Assembly (NCBI GenBank): GCA_021781255.1
Contig: JAJXXG010000736.1
Location: 1 to 6,855, forward strand
Direction: 5' to 3'
Source of the DNA: Acidobacteriota bacterium
Lineage (GTDB): Bacteria > Acidobacteriota > Terriglobia > Terriglobales > Acidobacteriaceae
Length of the DNA: 6,855 bases
Shown: one piece after another, positions 1 to 6,855 of the stretch
Layout of the letters: the number at the start of each line of letters is the position of its first letter
How positions within the stretch are numbered: the first letter of the stretch is position 1
Notes under the pieces: model-generated
Databases searched by the model: none
Told to the model about the DNA's origin: nothing
Seen by the model: the letters and a program-made list of their open reading frames with translations, nothing else
Program-made: the position numbers and the translations under genes

Positions 1-1
1 G

Positions 2-697
2 ATTCTGGATACGGCCGGGCAGAAAGGCACGGGCAAGTGGACCGTGATCAGCGCGCTCGATACCGGCCAGCCCGTGACTCTGATCGGCGAGAGCGTGTTC
101 GCACGATGCCTGTCAGCGCTGAAGGAGGAACGCGTGGAGGCAGAGAAGATTTTGCGCGGGCCTAAGACGGCGGTGAAGGTGGGCGGCCGCGCAAGGTTCA
201 TTGAGGACGTGCGCCGCGCGCTCTACAGCTCAAAGATCATCAGCTATGCGCAGGGCTACATGCTGCTGCGGGCCGCGGCCACAGAGAACGGCTGGAACCT
301 GAACATGGGCGGCATCGCGCTGATGTGGCGCGGCGGATGCATCATCCGCAGCAAGTTTCTGGGCAACATCAAGGCGGCTTACGAGAAAAATCCAAAGCTG
401 GACAATCTGCTGCTCGACATGTTTTTCTCGCGCGCGGTGAACAAGTACCAGGCCTCGTGGCGCAAGGCAGTGGCGCACGCCGTCAAGCTGGGCGTGCCTA
501 CGCCGGCGTTTGCCACAGCGCTCGCGTTCTTCGACGGCTACCGCACCGCCCGCCTGCCGCAAAACCTGCTGCAGGCACAGCGCGACTACTTCGGTGCGCA
601 CACGTACGAACGCGTCGATCAGCCGCGCGGCCAGTTCTTCCATACCAATTGGACGGGACACGGCGGAAGGGTATCGTCAACGACGTATAACGTCTAG
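2..697 (+). CDS. gnd: 6-phosphogluconate dehydrogenase, decarboxylating (C-terminal part, 5' truncated by window edge)
   Basis: Catalyses NADP-dependent oxidative decarboxylation of 6-phosphogluconate to ribulose 5-phosphate in the cytosolic pentose phosphate pathway. The frame is open from base 2 and gives 231 residues before the TAG at 695-697; the family is usually about 470-480 residues, so roughly the N-terminal half (the NADP-binding Rossmann domain) lies left of the window. The fragment opens with the family signature [13 protein letters not shown], followed by GESVFAR, the [11 protein letters not shown] stretch, [13 protein letters not shown], and the very conserved C-terminal tail [17 protein letters not shown], then [10 protein letters not shown] and a terminal YNV. 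These make the all-alpha dimerisation and substrate-binding domain, and the tail normally reaches into the partner subunit's active site. No frameshift or missing signature is seen. The gene converges on the kinase gene with three bases between stop codons. The apparent GTG at 44 is an internal valine, not a start. Confidence 0.97.
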
Positions 698-700
698 AAG

Positions 701-2161
701 TCAGCTTTCGGCTTTCGAAGAGTCGGGAGCATGGATGGGCAGGCGCACGATAAAGCGCGTGTCTCCCGGCTTCGATTCCACCTGAATCGTTCCGCCGAAT
801 TTTTGCGTCACGATGCGGTGAACGATCTCCAGGCCCAGCCCCGTGCCTGAGCCCTGCGGCTTGGTGGTGAAGAACGGTTCGAAGATGTGCGGAAGCGTGT
901 CGGGCGGAATGCCCGCGCCACGATCGCCGATCGAGACCGCGAGGAATCCAGGCTCGCTCCACGTGGCAATTTCGATCTTCGCGCCCTCGGGCGACGCGTC
1001 GGCGGCATTGTCGAGGAGGTTGGTCCAGACCTGACTGAGGGCATGACCGCGCGTACGGATGGTAGAGGGCGAGGCCGCGAATCGTTTTTCCACCTTGATC
1101 TGCTTGAGCCGCAGCTTGTGTCCGAGGATGGTGAGCGTGCTTTGCAGGCTGTCGTGAACGTTCAGGTCCCTGCCGGGCGTTCGCTCGTCGTAGGCAAACG
1201 TCTTTACGGCCGTCACCAATTCGGAGATGCGTGAGACGCTATCTTCGATGGCGCAGACCAGCGAGACACTGGAGACAAGGGATCCGAACCAGTTGAGCGC
1301 GTCGGAGAACGAGGCGGGATCAAATTGCTCCTTCGCGCATGCAATTTCGCCGCGATTGAAGCCCCTTGAGACGAGCACAGGCCCGATGGCGAAGGCATTC
1401 TCCACCTTCGCCGCGGCGAGCCATTCGCTCATGGCTTCCTCGGCGTCGGCCTGCTCCAGACTGCTCATCGCCGGCTGATTGCAGTCCTTGAGGGCGCGCT
1501 CCAGAAGATTCCTCATGCATTCAAGCTGAGCCGGGTTTTTGGGTTTCTCGCTCCCGCGCAGGCTGAGCTGCTGCAGGCGCAGCAGGTTCTCGCGCAGTTG
1601 CGAGGAGGCGCGCATGGCGGCAGAGCCGGGGTTGTGCAACTCGTGCATGAGTCCGGCGGCGAGCGTGCCCAAAGAGACCAGCTTCTCGCGGTGCAGCGCC
1701 TCAACCTGATAGGCCTGGAGCCGCTGCGCGCTATCGGCCAGGATGGTGTTGCGCACCGCGGAACAGCAGGCCAGCAAAGACCAAAAATCCTGCTCGCTGA
1801 AGCGGATGAGCACCGAATCCTGCGCCGCGGAGACGCGGAACATCGCGGCGCCTCTGCCGGTGAGCAAGGGCACCTCGCCGAATCCCTCGCCGGCTTGCAA
1901 GACCCCCACCAATGTCCAGGCCCCGTCTGGTTCCTGCCGTTCGGTGCGGATCTCGCCCTCGATCACGAGCCAGTAAAAGCGCCACAGTTCCCCTGCTTCA
2001 ACCAGCATGGCGCCGGCTTTGGCGGTTACGCGCTCGACGCGATTCACGCCTGCGATGGCGGCGAAGGGCGTGGCGGCGAAGATACGCGTACGCGGCAGAG
2101 CCTCGGCGAGATCCTTGAGAAGAACCGGTTCGACGCCGATCGGTTGTGTACTGTCAGTCAT
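701..2161 (-). CDS. Soluble sensor histidine kinase with N-terminal cyclic-nucleotide-binding-like domain
   Basis: Probably autophosphorylates on histidine and passes the phosphate to a receiver; the neighbouring receiver-reductase fusion is the obvious partner. With the ATG at 2159-2161 it has 486 residues. Residues about 30-135 look like a Crp-type cNMP-binding beta-roll (LVEAGELWRFYWLVIEGEIR, then GEGFGEVPLLTGRGAAMFRV). The phosphate-binding cassette is imperfect: the usual R-S/T-A is RGA, so nucleotide binding is unproven. The H-box is SLGTLAAGLMHELHNPGSAA with H173 as likely phospho-site. The stretch between H-box and N-box is unusually long. The ATPase part has LLDNAADA (N385), DRGAGIP (413-419), FEPFFTTK (427-434) and GTGLGLEIVHRI (from 439). 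No signal peptide or membrane segment is seen, so it should act in the cytoplasm. In-frame ATGs at 2204-2206 and 2201-2203 would add 15 or 14 residues, but that extension lies inside a REP-like element, so I prefer 2161. No start has a strong Shine-Dalgarno. Confidence 0.9.
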   Translation of the reverse strand: MTDSTQPIGVEPVLLKDLAEALPRTRIFAATPFAAIAGVNRVERVTAKAGAMLVEAGELWRFYWLVIEGEIRTERQEPDGAWTLVGVLQAGEGFGEVPLLTGRGAAMFRVSAAQDSVLIRFSEQDFWSLLACCSAVRNTILADSAQRLQAYQVEALHREKLVSLGTLAAGLMHELHNPGSAAMRASSQLRENLLRLQQLSLRGSEKPKNPAQLECMRNLLERALKDCNQPAMSSLEQADAEEAMSEWLAAAKVENAFAIGPVLVSRGFNRGEIACAKEQFDPASFSDALNWFGSLVSSVSLVCAIEDSVSRISELVTAVKTFAYDERTPGRDLNVHDSLQSTLTILGHKLRLKQIKVEKRFAASPSTIRTRGHALSQVWTNLLDNAADASPEGAKIEIATWSEPGFLAVSIGDRGAGIPPDTLPHIFEPFFTTKPQGSGTGLGLEIVHRIVTQKFGGTIQVESKPGDTRFIVRLPIHAPDSSKAES

Positions 2162-2183
2162 TCTGCTTGTTAATGCGGCGCTC

Positions 2184-2254
2184 CCGCAGGGGCCAAAGCC
2201 CATCATTCAATTCGGCCATCTCGGCACGACTGAAGTCGTGCCCTGTTACAAAGC
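2184..2254. repeat. REP-like intergenic element with two hairpins
   Basis: Two inverted repeats sit close together. The first is GGGC-CAAA-GCCC at 2190-2201. The second, stronger one is GGCACGAC-TGAA-GTCGTGCC at 2223-2242, a perfect 8-bp stem with a four-base loop, followed by CCTGTTACAAAGC. From memory, hairpins of this form ('GACTGAAGTCGTGCC') are scattered through intergenic regions of many acidobacterial genomes, like REP/BIME elements moved by RAYT transposases; I cannot confirm copy number here. Lying between the two members of a probable operon, it could stabilise the upstream message or reduce read-through. It covers the in-frame upstream ATGs of the kinase, which supports the downstream start. 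Confidence 0.6.
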
Positions 2255-2275
2255 AACCTTCATTGAGTTTCTCTG

Positions 2276-2312
2276 CTCGCCGCGGCGAGTAAAGTCGTAC
2301 CCTTTCAAAAAA
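2276..2312. repeat. Degenerate second REP-like copy with perfect 14-bp palindrome
   Basis: CTCGCCGCGGCGAG at 2276-2289 is a perfect palindrome. It is followed by TAAAGTCGTACCCTTTCAAA, which resembles the 3' part of the neighbouring element (TGAAGTCGTGCCCTGTTACAAA) with a few changes and a deletion. It therefore looks like a decayed second copy or the far half of a paired element. Function unknown. Confidence 0.4.
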
Positions 2313-2333
2313 CCCGAATCATGCGACAGGTTC
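2307..2333 (-). terminator. Possible weak rho-independent terminator after the receiver-reductase gene
   Basis: On the minus strand, GAACCTG (2333-2327) can pair with CGGGTTT (2316-2310) around a ten-base loop, and the second arm runs into a tract of six T (2312-2307). The stem is seven pairs including two G-T wobbles, so it is weak, and its first base overlaps the stop codon of the upstream gene. If active, it would partly separate expression of the kinase from the receiver-reductase gene. Confidence 0.3.
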
Positions 2334-3985
2334 TAAAACCCTGCCAGGTACTGGTGGACAAACTGGACCGCGATGGAACCCTCGCCCACCGCGGAGGCTA
2401 CGCGCTTTACCGAGCCGTGGCGCACGTCGCCGGCCACAAAAACGCCGGGCACGCTGCTCTCGAGCAGATACGGCTCGCGAGCTTCGCGCCAAACCTCCGG
2501 CAGTTTGCCATCTTTGCGCAGGTCCGGCCCGGCCAGTAAAAATCCATTTTCGTCGCGCAGGATGCAAGGCGGCAGCCATGCGGTGACGGGCGCCGCACCG
2601 ATCAAAACAAACAACGAGGACGCGGGCACCTCAACGTCTCCCGACGGTCCGCGCAACTTTAGCGCCGTCATACGCTCGTCGCCGATTGCCTCCAGCACCT
2701 GGGTCCGAGTTTCCACCACAATATTCGATGTTCTGGCGATCTCATCGATCAAGTATTTTGACATGGTGGCGGAAAGGCCCTCGCCGCGCACAAGCATGGT
2801 TACCTTGGAGGCAAATCGGGCAAAGTGCAGGGCAGCCTGGCCGGCGGAGTTTGCCCCCCCGGCGATATAGACCTCCTCACCCTTGCAGGCGAGGGCCTCG
2901 ACGAGCGCCGCGCCGTAGTAAACACCGCGGCCAGTGAGGCGATCTCCGCCGAGGATTGCGAGCTTGCGATACTGGACGCCGGGAGCAAGCAGCACGGCGT
3001 GGCTGGAAACCTCGCGGCCATCGGCGAGCTGAATAAAGCGGTATTGGCCATCGATGCGCATTCCGGTGGCGCGCTGGGTGACGAACTCGGCGCCGAATCG
3101 CGAGGCCTGGGTGTGAGCGCGGCGGCCCAATTCCGCGCCCGTGACGCCCGACGGGAAGCCGAGGTAGTTTTCGATCCGGGAGCTGGAGCCGGCCTGTCCT
3201 CCGGGCGCTTCGGGTTCGATGACCAGGGTGCGCAAGCCTTCACTGGCACCGTAGACCGCGGCGGCAAGGCCCGCCGGACCGGCGCCCACGACAACCAGGT
3301 CGTAGAAATCCTGGGCAGCCTGAACGCGCAGCCCGACGCGGGCAGCGAGCTCGCCCGGCTCCGGATCGACAAGCACGGTACCGTCCGCGAACAACACCAC
3401 AGGCAGCTTTTTGAGGTCAAGTTGACGGTCCTCGAGCAACTTGAGAGCTTCGGGGCTACCGGCAGCATCGAGCCAGCGGTAGGGCACATGATTGCGCGAC
3501 AGGAAGTTGCGGACGCGGTGGTCGTTCAGCGACCAGCGGTGCCCAATGACGCGCAAGCCCTCGAAGGACGGGCGGTAACCTGCCTGCCAGTCGTCGAGGA
3601 GGTCGTCGAGAACGGGGTAGAGCTTCTCCTCCGGGGGGTCCCAGGGCTTGTTGAGGTAGTAGTGAATGCGGGCGGAATTGATGGCGCGGATGGCCGCCTC
3701 AGTGTCAGCGTAGGCTGTGAGGAGGACGCGGCGCGCCTCGGGATAGAGATCGCGCGATCGCTCCAGCATCTCTACGCCGCTCATCCCCGGCATGCGCTGG
3801 TCGCTGAGCAGGAGCGCCACCGGCTCCTCGCGGGTTTTCAACTGAATCAGGGTGTCCAATGCGGCCTGGCCACCGCCGGCGCGCATCACTCGGTATGTGC
3901 TGCCATACTGGCGCCGCAGGTCCTGGACTACGGCCTCCAGCACGTTCGCATCGTCATCAACCGCCAGCAAAATCGGCCTTGCCAT
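2333..3985 (-). CDS. Response-regulator receiver fused to thioredoxin-reductase-like FAD/NAD(P)H oxidoreductase
   Basis: A 550-residue, apparently cytosolic, three-part protein. Residues 4-130 are a CheY-like receiver: acidic D10-D12, phosphoacceptor D62 in LLLSDQRMPGMSG, T90 in LLTAY and K113 in NKPW, so the phosphorylation machinery is complete. Residues about 143-222 (VIGHRWSLNDHRVRNFLSRN, then LPVVLFADGTVLVDP) look like a glutaredoxin/thioredoxin fold without CxxC. Residues about 227-550 are a thioredoxin-reductase-type flavoprotein: FAD motif GAGPAG (234-239) with E257, GGQAGSSSRIENYLGFP (262-278), NAD(P)H motif GGANSAG (376-382), and the C-terminal FAD motif FVAGDVRHGSVKRVASAVGEGS from 516. 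Where classical TrxB has the CATCDG redox pair, this protein has VYYGAALVEA (355-364), so thiol-disulfide exchange through that site is not possible. Annotation pipelines call such proteins 'fused response regulator/thioredoxin-disulfide reductase'; the reductase part of that name is doubtful here. The start ATG (3983-3985) has no Shine-Dalgarno. The kinase gene follows downstream. Confidence 0.92.
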   Translation of the reverse strand: MARPILLAVDDDANVLEAVVQDLRRQYGSTYRVMRAGGGQAALDTLIQLKTREEPVALLLSDQRMPGMSGVEMLERSRDLYPEARRVLLTAYADTEAAIRAINSARIHYYLNKPWDPPEEKLYPVLDDLLDDWQAGYRPSFEGLRVIGHRWSLNDHRVRNFLSRNHVPYRWLDAAGSPEALKLLEDRQLDLKKLPVVLFADGTVLVDPEPGELAARVGLRVQAAQDFYDLVVVGAGPAGLAAAVYGASEGLRTLVIEPEAPGGQAGSSSRIENYLGFPSGVTGAELGRRAHTQASRFGAEFVTQRATGMRIDGQYRFIQLADGREVSSHAVLLAPGVQYRKLAILGGDRLTGRGVYYGAALVEALACKGEEVYIAGGANSAGQAALHFARFASKVTMLVRGEGLSATMSKYLIDEIARTSNIVVETRTQVLEAIGDERMTALKLRGPSGDVEVPASSLFVLIGAAPVTAWLPPCILRDENGFLLAGPDLRKDGKLPEVWREAREPYLLESSVPGVFVAGDVRHGSVKRVASAVGEGSIAVQFVHQYLAGF

Positions 3986-3991
3986 AGAGAA

Positions 3992-4020
3992 AGTGTAGAA
4001 GGTTTGGCAAAACTACAGAA
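3992..4020 (-). promoter_or_regulatory. Candidate minus-strand promoter for the receiver-reductase gene, possibly leaderless
   Basis: Reading the minus strand, TACACT (3997-3992) is a fair -10 and ends six bases before the ATG. A poor -35, TTCTGT (4020-4015), lies 17 bases upstream. Transcription from it would begin at or next to the start codon, and the gene has no Shine-Dalgarno, which fits a leaderless message. The -35 match is weak, so this is tentative. Confidence 0.3.
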
Positions 4021-4070
4021 AGTTTGTTCTTGCCGGCTTCGTTCCGGGTCGCCGCTCGCTGGTGCTCTCA

Positions 4071-4105
4071 CCCCAGCGACAAAGACCTGTCGCCGGGGGC
4101 CCCGG
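4071..4105. repeat. Second intergenic hairpin element (REP-like)
   Basis: CCCC-A-GCGACA (4071-4081) pairs with TGTCGC-C-GGGG (4088-4098) around loop AAGACC, with one A/C mismatch. The right arm also belongs to a competing perfect 6-bp palindrome, CCGGGG-G-CCCCGG (4093-4105). I recall similar 'CTCACCCCAGCGACAAA...TGTCGCYGGGG' elements between genes of acidobacteria, which suggests a dispersed repeat family; this cannot be tested from one window. It lies upstream of both divergent genes and has no T-tract, so it does not look like a terminator. Confidence 0.5.
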
Positions 4106-4202
4106 ACTTGAATCTTGTCGTTCCCGGGATACAGAATCTGTGGTTTTGCAGTAGCCAGACCCATTCTAGTTAATGATTTCTACGGCTCTCTCTCTTCAGG
4201 TT

Positions 4203-4245
4203 TTTATACTCGTTTGGGCCGTCAAGCTATAATCTCGCTTATAGC
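4203..4245 (+). promoter_or_regulatory. Candidate promoter of the LuxR-type regulator with an overlapping 20-bp palindromic operator
   Basis: A consensus -10, TATAAT, lies at 4228-4233. The best upstream -35-like hexamer is TTTATA at 4203-4208, with a long 19-base spacer. The -10 sits inside a perfect inverted repeat, GCTATAA (4226-4232), six bases, TTATAGC (4239-4245). Twenty-base dyads of this kind are typical sizes for LuxR-family or other dimeric regulators, and binding here would block RNA polymerase. Transcription from about 4240 would leave a leader of nearly 240 bases before the gene at 4478. The bound protein is not known; autoregulation by the gene downstream is an inference. Confidence 0.45.
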
Positions 4246-4477
4246 GTGCCAAGATCGTACCGATCTGTGCCAGAGCCGCGCGGTTGCGCATCGAAGCGGC
4301 AGAGCTTGTATATGTAGCAATTGCATGCATTGCCAAGGTTTCGCGCCAATCCGCCGATAGTAACAAGAGAATGAAAGCCGCGGGCACCGCTGTTCAAGCG
4401 CCCAAGGGTTTAGCGAAGATCAGGGTTGAAACGCCGCATTTTCGTGGACAGGGACACGGGCAGGCAGAGCACACATC
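4246..4477 (+). other. Long presumed 5' leader, no gene recognised
   Basis: This stretch between the TATAAT and the regulator start has no convincing coding region and no tRNA or known riboswitch that I recognise. It holds small inverted repeats: AGATCG-TAC-CGATCT at 4252-4266 (perfect 6-bp arms) and GCAAT/ATTGC arms around TGCATGC at 4317-4333. A frame opening at the ATG at 4371 runs on through the regulator gene in another frame and looks like chance. The ribosome-binding region before 4478 (GGCAGAGCACACATC) is weak. Confidence 0.4.
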
Positions 4478-5179
4478 ATGTACAAGATCATCCTTGCCGA
4501 TTCGCAAGCGATCTTCCGGGCCGGAACCGCCAAGGTTCTGGCGATGGACGAGGATCTGCGCATCATCGCACAGTGCACGGATTTGGAGCGAATGTACCAT
4601 GCCATCGCCACCTTCCCCAGCGCCATTGTCCTGTTTTCGTCTTCGCTACAGCCGGATTTTGCGCGGCTTGCGGTGTTGCTTGAGACCACGGGCAGCCGTG
4701 GCATTGTGATTGCGGAGAACAACGAGCATGCCGCAACCTACCTGCAGCAGGGCTTTCGCGGCGTAGTGTTTCGCAGCGTTACCGGCCCGACGCTGGTAGA
4801 TTGCGTGCGCCGCGTGGCCGGCGGCGAGGTGTGGTTCCCCCCTCAGGCCGCGAAGCCAGAGTCGCCCGAAGAAGATATGGTGGGCGCGCGCGTGCGCGAT
4901 CGCCTGACGCCGAAAGAGATGCGCATTGTGGCCCTGATCGTGCAGGGGTGCAAGAACCGCGAGATTGCCCTGCGCCTGAAGACCACGGAGCAGGTAATTA
5001 AGAATTACCTGCGCTCGATCTACGACAAGACCGGAGTCAGCGATCGGCTGGAGCTGGCGCTGTTCACTATCCATCACCAGGTGCTGGCCAAGGCCGCCGC
5101 AGACGTTGGCCAGAAAATGGAAGCCGAAGCAAAAGCTGCTCCCGTCGCCGTTGGCGGACGAAAATTCGGGGAGTCATGA
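4478..5179 (+). CDS. NarL/LuxR-family transcriptional regulator with degenerate receiver domain
   Basis: A 233-residue DNA-binding regulator. Residues 1-118 fold-match a NarL-type receiver (YKIILADSQAIFRAG at the start, GFRGVVFRSVTGPTLVDCV before the linker), but the phospho-chemistry is missing: only D8 remains of the acidic pair, the strand that should carry the phosphoacceptor reads VLFSSSLQP (51-59) with no Asp anywhere from 36 to 59, the conserved Thr/Ser is A79 and the conserved Lys is R99. Residues 143-202 (LTPKEMRIVALIVQGCKNREIA, then KTTEQVIKNYLRSIYDKTGV) are a complete GerE/LuxR helix-turn-helix. A 30-residue Ala/Lys/Glu-rich tail follows. It therefore probably binds DNA without phosphorylation, or responds to another signal through the pseudo-receiver. 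It is divergent from the receiver-reductase gene. ATG at 4478 is the first plausible start in frame; the Shine-Dalgarno is weak. Targets are unknown. Confidence 0.93.
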   Translation: MYKIILADSQAIFRAGTAKVLAMDEDLRIIAQCTDLERMYHAIATFPSAIVLFSSSLQPDFARLAVLLETTGSRGIVIAENNEHAATYLQQGFRGVVFRSVTGPTLVDCVRRVAGGEVWFPPQAAKPESPEEDMVGARVRDRLTPKEMRIVALIVQGCKNREIALRLKTTEQVIKNYLRSIYDKTGVSDRLELALFTIHHQVLAKAAADVGQKMEAEAKAAPVAVGGRKFGES

Positions 5180-5224
5180 CCCGAGTTTGAAATCAATAAT
5201 GTTGACCTGGATTCCAGGGGCGAC

Positions 5225-5254
5225 TTGACGACCGCATATTTTTCCGCTTATTTT
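5225..5254 (+). promoter_or_regulatory. Candidate sigma-70-type promoter for the MFS permease
   Basis: TTGACG (5225-5230) matches the -35 consensus in five of six positions. An 18-base spacer leads to TATTTT (5249-5254), four of six for the -10. The predicted start, near 5261, falls just before the tandem palindromes, the expected arrangement for repression. No other convincing promoter is seen between the regulator stop and the permease. Confidence 0.45.
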
Positions 5255-5263
5255 CAACTGCAG

Positions 5264-5307
5264 CGAGATAATCTCGATTCTTCCCCGAGATAATCTCGAT
5301 TCTTCCC
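5264..5307. repeat. Two perfect 22-bp tandem repeats, each with a 13-bp palindrome (candidate operators)
   Basis: Copies at 5264-5285 and 5286-5307 are identical in all 22 bases and directly adjoining. Each starts with CGAGAT-A-ATCTCG, a perfect dyad with six-base arms, followed by ATTCTTCCC. The palindrome centres are 22 bp apart, about two helical turns, so two dimers would sit on the same DNA face. The pair lies immediately downstream of a candidate promoter and about 150 bases upstream of the permease start. The binding protein is not identifiable; MarR-, GntR- or TetR-type repressors are reasonable guesses. Confidence 0.7.
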
Positions 5308-5460
5308 TTTAATGTGCCGAATGAAGTTCATAAGACTGGGAATCAGGCAAGTGCTTGAACAAGTACACCTGCACTGAAAATCCCAATGGATTCACGGTTT
5401 CTGCACCTCCAGGGTTGCGATCCTGGCGCCAGTGTATTCAATCGAGGTCGAATTCAGGTC
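5308..5460 (+). other. Leader region of the MFS gene with overlapping small hairpins
   Basis: No gene is recognised here. CCAGG (5409-5413) can pair with CCTGG (5422-5426) around an eight-base loop, and the second arm overlaps a perfect ten-base palindrome CTGGCGCCAG (5423-5432), so the two structures are mutually exclusive. An in-frame ATG at 5386 would extend the permease by 25 residues; an in-frame TGA at 5356-5358 limits any further extension. Confidence 0.35.
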
Positions 5461-6855
5461 ATGACTTCAACAACCGACACCGAAAGCTCGGCGGGCCCCG
5501 GCCAGGTCGCCGAGGGCGATTTCTCGCGGCGCAAGATCAAAATAGCGACCGCAATCCTCGTTGGGCAGACGTTCGCGACGAGCATCCTGCCGTACAGCGC
5601 GCTGACCTTCGTCATGATCCCGATGACGCGAGAGTTCGGCTGGACGCGCACCCAATTCTCCTTCGCCACCACGTTCCTGTTCATCTTCGGCGCGGCAAGC
5701 CTGTGGCCGATCGGCCGTATCGCCGACAAGGTGGGCGTGCGGCCCGTTATCCTCATCGGCACGACCATCGTTGGCCTGGTGACGATCGCCATGTCGCGCC
5801 AGACGGCGAGCCTCGCGCTGCTGTTCGTCTTTTACACGCTGCTTGGCATGTTCGGCTCGACCGGCGTTGCGTACAACAAGGTAGTCGCCGCGCTGTTCAC
5901 CCAGAACCGCGGCAAGGCCCTGGCGATTCTCGGCGCGGAGTCGACCGTCGCGGCGGCGATCATCCCGATTCTGACGAACTTCCTGATGCTCAACTACGGC
6001 TGGCGCACGATGTACGTGGTCTTCGGCGCACTCATCCTCGCCGTCGTGCCCATCCTCTACTTCACCATCGAAGAGCCCGGGCAGATCGGCATCAATCTGC
6101 GTCCGCACTGGGCCCACAAGGCCACTCACTCGATGGCCGCTCCCTCGGCCACCCCTGACGCTGCGGCGGTTGGACCCGAACGCCAAGCGCCGCCGCTACC
6201 GCGCCCACCCCGTCTCGAGGGCATGGCGCTCAGGGAGGCGCTGAAGGACTGGGTGTTCTGGCTCATCACGGCTGCCGCGATGTTCGGCATGCTCATCGCG
6301 ACCGGCATGGTCGCGCACATGATTCCCGCTCTGCTCGGGAAGGGCTTCAGTCAGACATTCGCCGCGGAGATGACCTCCCTATTCCTGCTCGCTGGAATCG
6401 GCGGGGCGCTCGCCGGCGGCTACGCGGTGGATCGGTTTCAGACCGCCAAGGTGGGCACGCCGTTCAGCCTGTTGGCGGCCGCCGGCGCGCTTCTGCTGAT
6501 GATCGTTACCTCGAGCTACGGCGGCGATGCCGTTCTGGTCGTCGCCATTGCGCTCGGCGGCTTCTCATTTGCCGCTTACCGTCCCATGGGTCTGTACTTC
6601 CAGACGCGCTTCTTCGGACTCGGCTCCTTTACCGAGATCATGTCATTCCAGTACATGATAACGAACCCCATTTCTGCGTTCTCGGCACCGCTCATCGGAG
6701 TCATCTACGACCGCACACATTCCTACCACCTCGCGTTTCTGCTGATGGCCGTCTCCCCGCTCCTCGCAGCCTTTGTCTGGCTGGCGCTGCCGAAATACCG
6801 GTACTCCGCCAATATCGGAGTGTTGATGGTGCCGGCTCCCAGGCAGAGTGGAGGA
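5461..6855 (+). CDS. MFS permease (12-TM, oxalate/formate-antiporter or monocarboxylate-like style), 3' end beyond window
   Basis: The frame is open from ATG 5461 to the last base: 465 residues with no stop yet, close to full length for the family. It starts with a polar N-terminus (1-27), then about six hydrophobic segments (roughly 28-54, 66-86, 95-111, 116-140, 154-178, 182-203), a Pro/Ala-rich cytoplasmic loop (204-260) and six more (262-287, 302-325, 331-350, 356-380, 392-415, 422-444). The MFS motif A is clear after TM2: GRIADKVGVR (85-94); a second-half echo, GGYAVDRFQTAKV, follows TM8. It should be an inner-membrane secondary transporter. The single long central loop and overall look recall the OFA/monocarboxylate group, so a small organic acid is a guess; the substrate is not readable. 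ATG 5461 is preferred because the hydrophobic core follows after a short polar tail; ATG 5386 is the alternative. The Shine-Dalgarno is poor (GAGG at 5444-5447, AGG at 5456-5458). Confidence 0.92.
   Translation, partial: MTSTTDTESSAGPGQVAEGDFSRRKIKIATAILVGQTFATSILPYSALTFVMIPMTREFGWTRTQFSFATTFLFIFGAASLWPIGRIADKVGVRPVILIGTTIVGLVTIAMSRQTASLALLFVFYTLLGMFGSTGVAYNKVVAALFTQNRGKALAILGAESTVAAAIIPILTNFLMLNYGWRTMYVVFGALILAVVPILYFTIEEPGQIGINLRPHWAHKATHSMAAPSATPDAAAVGPERQAPPLPRPPRLEGMALREALKDWVFWLITAAAMFGMLIATGMVAHMIPALLGKGFSQTFAAEMTSLFLLAGIGGALAGGYAVDRFQTAKVGTPFSLLAAAGALLLMIVTSSYGGDAVLVVAIALGGFSFAAYRPMGLYFQTRFFGLGSFTEIMSFQYMITNPISAFSAPLIGVIYDRTHSYHLAFLLMAVSPLLAAFVWLALPKYRYSANIGVLMVPAPRQSGG

Follow-up and report, generated by a model that had tools for sequence, protein, structure and literature searches.

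What does a two-component pathway control when its receiver is joined to a flavoprotein related to thioredoxin reductase (TrxR)? The question is raised by a stretch of 6,855 nt from an Acidobacteriota bacterium (contig JAJXXG010000736.1, assembly GCA_021781255.1, positions 1 to 6,855 of the forward strand; hereafter the window). Here a gene for a fusion of a receiver (REC), a glutaredoxin (Grx)- or thioredoxin (Trx)-like domain and a TrxR-like flavoprotein is followed on the same, minus strand, after a gap of 126 nt, by a gene for a histidine kinase with a cyclic nucleotide (cNMP)-binding fold. We interpret the two genes as a dedicated two-component system whose output resembles an enzyme, namely a flavin adenine dinucleotide (FAD) protein that lacks the canonical cysteines and is controlled by phosphorylation, and we put the probability of this interpretation at roughly 60%. 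The features of the pair are as follows.

2333..3985, minus strand: REC, Grx/Trx-like and TrxR-like flavoprotein fusion of 550 aa (open reading frame, Pfam and TIGRFAM profiles)
3632..3967, minus strand: receiver domain, residues 7-118 (Pfam PF00072, Response_reg, 1e-14)
3800-3802, minus strand: codon of D62, the predicted phospho-acceptor (read from the sequence)
3326..3559, minus strand: putative thioredoxin/glutaredoxin-fold domain without CxxC, approximately residues 143-220, Pro195 kept (secondary structure of the model, invariance)
2345..3304, minus strand: TrxR-like FAD/NAD(P)-binding flavoprotein, residues 228-547 (PF07992, Pyr_redox_2, residues 228-536, 1.1e-27)
2912..2920, minus strand: YYG, residues 356-358, in place of the CxxC of TrxR (alignment)
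701..2206, minus strand: histidine kinase with a cNMP fold, 501 aa, or starting from M16 (open reading frame, Pfam)
1772..2029, minus strand: sensor domain with a cNMP-binding fold, residues 60-145, without the phosphate-binding Arg (PF00027, 3.1e-12)
1643..1645, minus strand: codon of H188, the predicted phosphorylated His, within HELHNP (sequence, alignment)
1325..1534, minus strand: insertion of four helices between the two helices of the dimerization and histidine phosphotransfer (DHp) domain, residues 225-294 (model, mean predicted local distance difference test score, pLDDT, 88)
734..1042, minus strand: HATPase_c catalytic domain, residues 389-491 (PF02518, 2.2e-26)

An initial annotation of this DNA had placed a cNMP-domain histidine kinase directly downstream of the fusion on the same strand, and the two open reading frames with their PF00027 and PF02518 matches bear this out; the H173 of that annotation is H188 of the longest frame, the earlier numbering having started from M16. 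The phosphorelay residues are invariant among relatives of both proteins. D62, T90 and K113 of the receiver, which had been read as intact, are present in the window and, together with D10 and D11, in all 54 aligned fusions, while H188, E189, N192 and P193 of the kinase (H-box sequence AGLMHELHN) are found in 47 of 47 aligned kinases. Domain scans revealed no DNA-binding domain in either the fusion or the kinase, again as annotated.

The flavoprotein part of the fusion has lost the redox centres of its relatives. The only cysteines of the window protein are C367 and C474, and it has no CxxC. Where TrxR carries its CxxC, all 54 aligned fusions have Y357 and G358 unchanged, and the Grx-like site of the same proteins mostly reads G-x-R-W-S and never CxxC. 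Cysteines at both sites were found only in L132 (loci and genomes are given by our own numbers, L and G), a stand-alone protein with CPDC and CATC, among 134 superfamily proteins scanned, a set in which L111 is without the TrxR stretch and L143 without the Grx stretch; L011 has one cysteine within the scanned TrxR stretch. Some forms without a receiver have a changed YG as well, e.g., YA or YS. The fusion scores 193.5 bits with the TIGR01292 profile of thioredoxin-disulfide reductase (cut-off 343.45) and 135.7 bits with the TIGR03140 profile of AhpF (cut-off 502.9); it shares the FAD and nucleotide domains and sequence homology with both families, and differs from them in the YYG replacing CxxC and in scores below both curated cut-offs. 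The NADPH 2'-phosphate motif of thioredoxin reductase is HRRxxxR. The window protein has VRGEGL instead, with R400 kept in 54 of 54 fusions and G at position 401 in 48 of 54.

An ordinary thioredoxin reductase is thereby ruled out (YYG for CxxC, TIGR01292 score below the cut-off), as is an ordinary glutaredoxin (no CPxC active site, CxxC at that place only in L132 among the 134 proteins). Since both canonical redox centres are gone, the fusion is not an ordinary thioredoxin reductase, contrary to its database name, and the usual hand-over of electrons from flavin to thioredoxin or glutaredoxin is impossible; with CxxC absent and the TIGR01292 score below the cut-off, 'thioredoxin reductase' in databases is therefore a homology label, a misnomer worth correcting. 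The initial annotation was right in the homology of the flavoprotein, and the thiol-disulphide chemistry that its wording implied was not supported. Its glutaredoxin-like domain is kept as a putative fold: residues 144-216 have a predicted beta-alpha-beta-alpha-beta-beta-alpha order that in the model fits the thioredoxin fold, Pro195 is invariant among the aligned fusions, and L132, the cysteine-bearing relative, gives the sole PF00462 match (1.1e-8) among the proteins scanned; in the window protein this part has no Pfam match.

With a TrxR-like flavoprotein joined to a receiver that carries the phospho-site residues, the fusion falls into the class named TrxB in surveys based on P2CS, which has the same domain pairing of REC and thioredoxin reductase, and the pair is a real, widespread member of this class of response regulators already in print. 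The passages on the class available to us call the output a thioredoxin reductase or a pyridine nucleotide-disulphide oxidoreductase and are silent on both the missing cysteines and the co-occurring kinase family. In such passages, SCO7298 (TrxB) and SCO7297 of S. coelicolor are given as a response regulator and histidine kinase pair (PMC9739842), a 'Mycobacterium-like' REC-TrxR is described in Heimdallarchaeota (PMC5847659), and a table for thermophilic cyanobacteria contains one TrxB count (PMC9953108). It should be noted that SCO7298 is tied to the present family by its published class label, not by sequence. Should it prove to be a member, expression studies in which such genes go by the name trxB (e.g., trxB3 for SCO7298) may be misread. 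In the portions of the open-access literature that we saw, we found neither biochemistry of the kinase/fusion pair nor any remark on its missing cysteines, in agreement with the earlier statement that chemistry and signal are not established.

Is the kinase a constant partner of the fusion? The fusion is a common protein, with at least 8000 candidates passing an E-value of 1e-10 in the family search. A genome scan confirmed at least 584 loci, the best 80 of which were used, a set biased toward kin of the window. In 57 of these 80 loci the kinase lies directly downstream on the same strand; it is elsewhere in the locus in 11, the flank is too short in four, and in eight the kinase is absent from the extracted flanks. 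Counted from the first possible start codon, 31 of the 81 same-strand pairs from all loci have overlapping genes, 23 of them with an overlap of exactly 4 nt. Plasmid records show the same arrangement, with an 'ATP-binding protein' directly after the fusion in Deinococcus, Streptomyces, Tsukamurella, Caballeronia and Gloeothece, and a Nostoc edaphicum plasmid has two genes between fusion and kinase. Two or three kinases occur near one fusion in seven of the 80 loci. Clustering of neighbours in 89 receiver-fusion loci yielded no third gene common to all of them. All 12 hand-picked fusion genomes match the kinase, including those of L035 and L049, which have none at the locus itself.

We further compared the presence of both families in 646 genomes, sampled from four phyla around centre genomes with the pair, so that four of the 62 fusion genomes are themselves centres. 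The kinase threshold was 1e-60; for the fusion we used 1e-60 within Actinomycetota and 1e-90 within each of the remaining phyla. Scoring covered the best few first-look candidates per genome (at most 13 among the rows listed), and absence is meant at that sensitivity; receiver presence was judged from the matched range, except in Actinomycetota, where the site residues were read, and at 20 Acidobacteriota places. In total, 61 of the 62 genomes with a receiver fusion have the kinase; it is found in one of the 84 genomes whose matches are all to other relatives and in 12 of the 499 without any match, and one genome is undetermined. Among the 199 Acidobacteriota genomes, with which a second draw of 149 overlaps, the corresponding counts are 24/24, 1/14 (G133) and 5/161, and of the last five matches four are under 270 bits and one, in G348, sits at the end of a contig of 8.3 kb. 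In Actinomycetota (149 genomes), the kinase accompanies the fusion in 18 of 18 genomes (receiver intact or partly seen) and is found in none of eight with only a full-length degenerate-receiver form, none of 28 with other matches, many of which resemble canonical TrxR, and none of 95 without a match. The counts for fusion, other forms and none are 5/5, 0/3 and 6/109 in Cyanobacteriota (117 genomes; all six under 280 bits) and 14/15, 0/31 and 1/134 (217 bits) in Chloroflexota (181 genomes), where the undetermined genome, G490, has a kinase and a fusion broken at a contig end, G509 is split over contigs, and G495 and G557 give partial matches. Kinase matches above 300 bits without a receiver fusion are limited to G133, which has lost the receiver, G348 and G490. 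The counts are phylogenetically clumped across the samples.

Judged by record title or sample centre, members belong to Acidobacteriota, Actinomycetota, Cyanobacteriota, Chloroflexota, Deinococcota, Pseudomonadota (seen only on plasmid records) and Myxococcota. One record titled Betaproteobacteria (L061, G005) falls in the same phylum draw as an Acidobacteriota centre, and its title is therefore probably wrong; the larger sample of 199 genomes, which has this record as its centre, is accordingly counted as Acidobacteriota. The initial annotation had described the pairing as known from several phyla and proposed a survey of its neighbourhood, and the counts above agree with it. On locus linkage and genome co-occurrence together, a chance neighbourhood of kinase and fusion is rejected.

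In Actinomycetota, where all 38 receiver-covering matches were examined (37 extracted loci and L090), a kinase is next door to 18 of 19 intact-receiver matches and to none of 16 degenerate ones, three matches being cut or split; in the degenerate set, L101 aligned only from profile position 23 and L170 is cut at the end. The genome of the intact exception, L109, has a family kinase (L171) about 22 kb off. If rows were independent, Fisher's test would give p = 4e-9. In a tree of 94 rows, the intact fusions and L127 form one clade (SH-aLRT 86) and the degenerate forms another; because the rows are not independent, the association of an intact receiver with an adjacent kinase is suggestive only.

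What signal could the kinase receive? The Arg of the phosphate-binding cassette is usual in cAMP- and cGMP-binding domains. It is absent in the window kinase and, by eye on the alignment, present in just one of 47 kinases (L079), so that cAMP is not the obvious signal and was rejected as the default one. The window kinase shares the H-box and the HATPase domain with the HisKA-type kinases HK853 and ZraS, and differs from them in a helical insertion of approximately 70 residues between the DHp helices of the model and in having no Pfam HisKA match. The distance from H188 to N396 is 198-210 in 47 of 47 kinases. In a Foldseek search with the kinase model, the 50 matches listed are mostly histidine kinases and cover part of the model. 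The insertion may not be exclusive to the kinase/fusion pair, since weaker matches (210-280 bits) that span its region occur in genomes without the fusion.

Relatives of both proteins show different modules attached to the same bodies. The flavoprotein body may be preceded by a degenerate receiver, by a cNMP domain or by no module at all, as an exchangeable N-terminal input would predict. For example, the one-component relatives L007 and L008 (cyclic nucleotide-binding domain-containing thioredoxin-disulfide reductase) have the same Grx-like and TrxR-like body without cysteines, at about 49% identity over some 405 residues, and differ in a cNMP domain fused where the receiver would be and in the lack of a family kinase at their loci. 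The stand-alone L132 has the same two-domain body, and differs in keeping its CPDC and CATC and in having neither a receiver nor a kinase at its locus. Among the kinases, the cyanobacterial L003 has a receiver in place of the cNMP fold. These forms fit a common effector with interchangeable inputs, either one-component (cNMP domain fused) or two-component (cNMP kinase and receiver). Extra kinases of the family occur elsewhere in several genomes; unlinked second copies in Acidobacteriota (L112-L124) include several that lie, by eye, near acetolactate synthase-like and topoisomerase I-like genes.

How might such a system work? We infer the phosphotransfer, the switching and the electron acceptor as follows. 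The soluble kinase would sense its signal via the cNMP-fold domain, autophosphorylate H188 and hand the phosphate to D62 of the fusion; the ExxN motif suggests that it may also dephosphorylate D62. Phosphorylation of the receiver could alter the packing or the oligomeric state of the thioredoxin-fold and TrxR-like domains, and this change would switch the electron flow from NAD(P)H to FAD, or access to the acceptor. The acceptor is more likely a non-disulphide one (a small molecule, another redox protein or O2), unless the protein has a non-catalytic, NAD(P)H-reporting role. In its specific form, this proposal is tentative: a re-purposed, cysteine-free TrxR-like output, sometimes served by two or three kinases, in which phosphorylation would gate NAD(P)H-flavin flow to a non-disulphide acceptor, or flavin-redox-dependent binding of a partner. 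If true, it would mean redox control through phosphorylation, with thiol chemistry not involved, across seven phyla. The pair is also a simple system in which to study the control of a flavoprotein by a receiver.

Several observations weigh against this interpretation. Linkage is loose in cyanobacteria, which by record title account for 15 of the 19 loci with an adequate flank yet no directly downstream kinase. Gene order varies: the kinase is upstream in G026, G102, G352 and one G137 copy, is encoded on the other strand in G010 and in one of the G566 copies, and sits on a separate contig in G459 and G618. In G555 the fusion is present and no kinase reaches 1e-60. The tree offers just two independent contrasts (sign test p = 1), and the association of receiver and kinase is thus not phylogenetically replicated. 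At L127 the open frame begins just past the receiver, which is lost, and the kinase is retained. The model of the fusion has a mean pLDDT of 83.7 and falls under 50 in the flavin-site loops 262-279 and 355-360; being weakest there, it leaves catalysis unsettled. Finally, the fusions are not free of cysteines: CxxC occurs at another place in four of 54, 39 of 54 have Cys in the alignment column of residue 328, and C367 is kept in 50 of 54, a single Cys that leaves other thiol chemistry possible.

C367 is the sole obvious candidate for such chemistry, by which the fusion would be a thiol enzyme after all, acting through this or another non-canonical Cys in thioredoxin or polysulphide metabolism. 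Besides its conservation, such a role would suit the reported induction of SCO7298, assigned to TrxB by published label, by polysulphide (PMC9952706) and by acid shock (PMC2631018), as given in the passages seen. However, expression data are no proof of catalysis, SCO7298 is linked here through that label only, neither site has a CxxC, and C367, which the cNMP relatives L007 and L008 lack, is not at a position equivalent to the CxxC; we regard a thiol enzyme as improbable. Even less probable is that the two genes are merely co-regulated neighbours and the kinase phosphorylates a different receiver. The extra unlinked kinases of some genomes and the 12 of 90 intact fusions without a kinase at the locus, some with short flanks, would be in line with this, but the near-reciprocal co-occurrence in four phylum samples and the overlapping start and stop codons in 31 of 81 pairs speak for partnership.

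The flow of information could also be reversed, with the flavoprotein sensing the redox state of NAD(P)H or flavin, determining whether its own receiver is phosphorylated or dephosphorylated, and feeding back on the kinase, whose real output would be another regulator. The loss of both disulphide centres is no less compatible with a sensor than with an enzyme, and both the window and 20 of the 80 loci, namely the 19 best-ranked (L014-L032) and L077, have a gene for a divergent LuxR-type regulator on the 5' side of the fusion. This regulator, however, has A or S in place of the receiver phospho-Asp in 21 of 21 cases including the window, and is restricted to the nearest relatives of the window among the 89 clustered loci; it was not found at L040 and L080, both titled Acidobacteriaceae. 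The flavoprotein, moreover, exists without a working receiver in the cNMP, receiver-less and degenerate-receiver forms, and strong kinase matches (>300 bits) without a receiver fusion are confined to the three genomes named above. We therefore consider reversed flow unlikely and retain phosphorylation control of the flavoprotein as the preferred interpretation. Because the LuxR gene adjoins the fusion in the window and in the 20 loci most like it, a transcriptional arm may nevertheless be nearby at window-like loci.

The other features of the window are as follows.

4478..5179, plus strand: divergent LuxR-type regulator with a pseudo-receiver, A or S at the phospho-Asp site (PF00196, 1e-9; no Response_reg match)
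2-697, plus strand: flanking gene, C-terminal part of 6-phosphogluconate dehydrogenase (profile matches)
5386-6855, plus strand: flanking gene, major facilitator superfamily (MFS) transporter (profile matches)

Between fusion and kinase there is a near-perfect inverted repeat, GGCACGACTGAAGTCGTGCC (window positions 2223-2242); exact copies of this hairpin were sought in 171 loci and none was found, and no role for it emerged. Several close relatives of the window among the matches listed are named from Terracidiphilus metagenome-assembled genomes (Acidobacteriota). At other loci, a UBP-type zinc-finger gene comes after the kinase in two plasmid loci of actinobacteria (L002, 9110-9463, PF02148; L004, 9137-9487) and precedes the receiver-less Grx-TrxR gene in Rhodococcus (L009, 5663-6031), and a look-alike zinc finger, recognized by eye, clusters in six of 89 receiver-fusion loci. 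The region 3017-8371 of L127 encodes as well, by eye, a Dps-like protein and two hemerythrin-like proteins.

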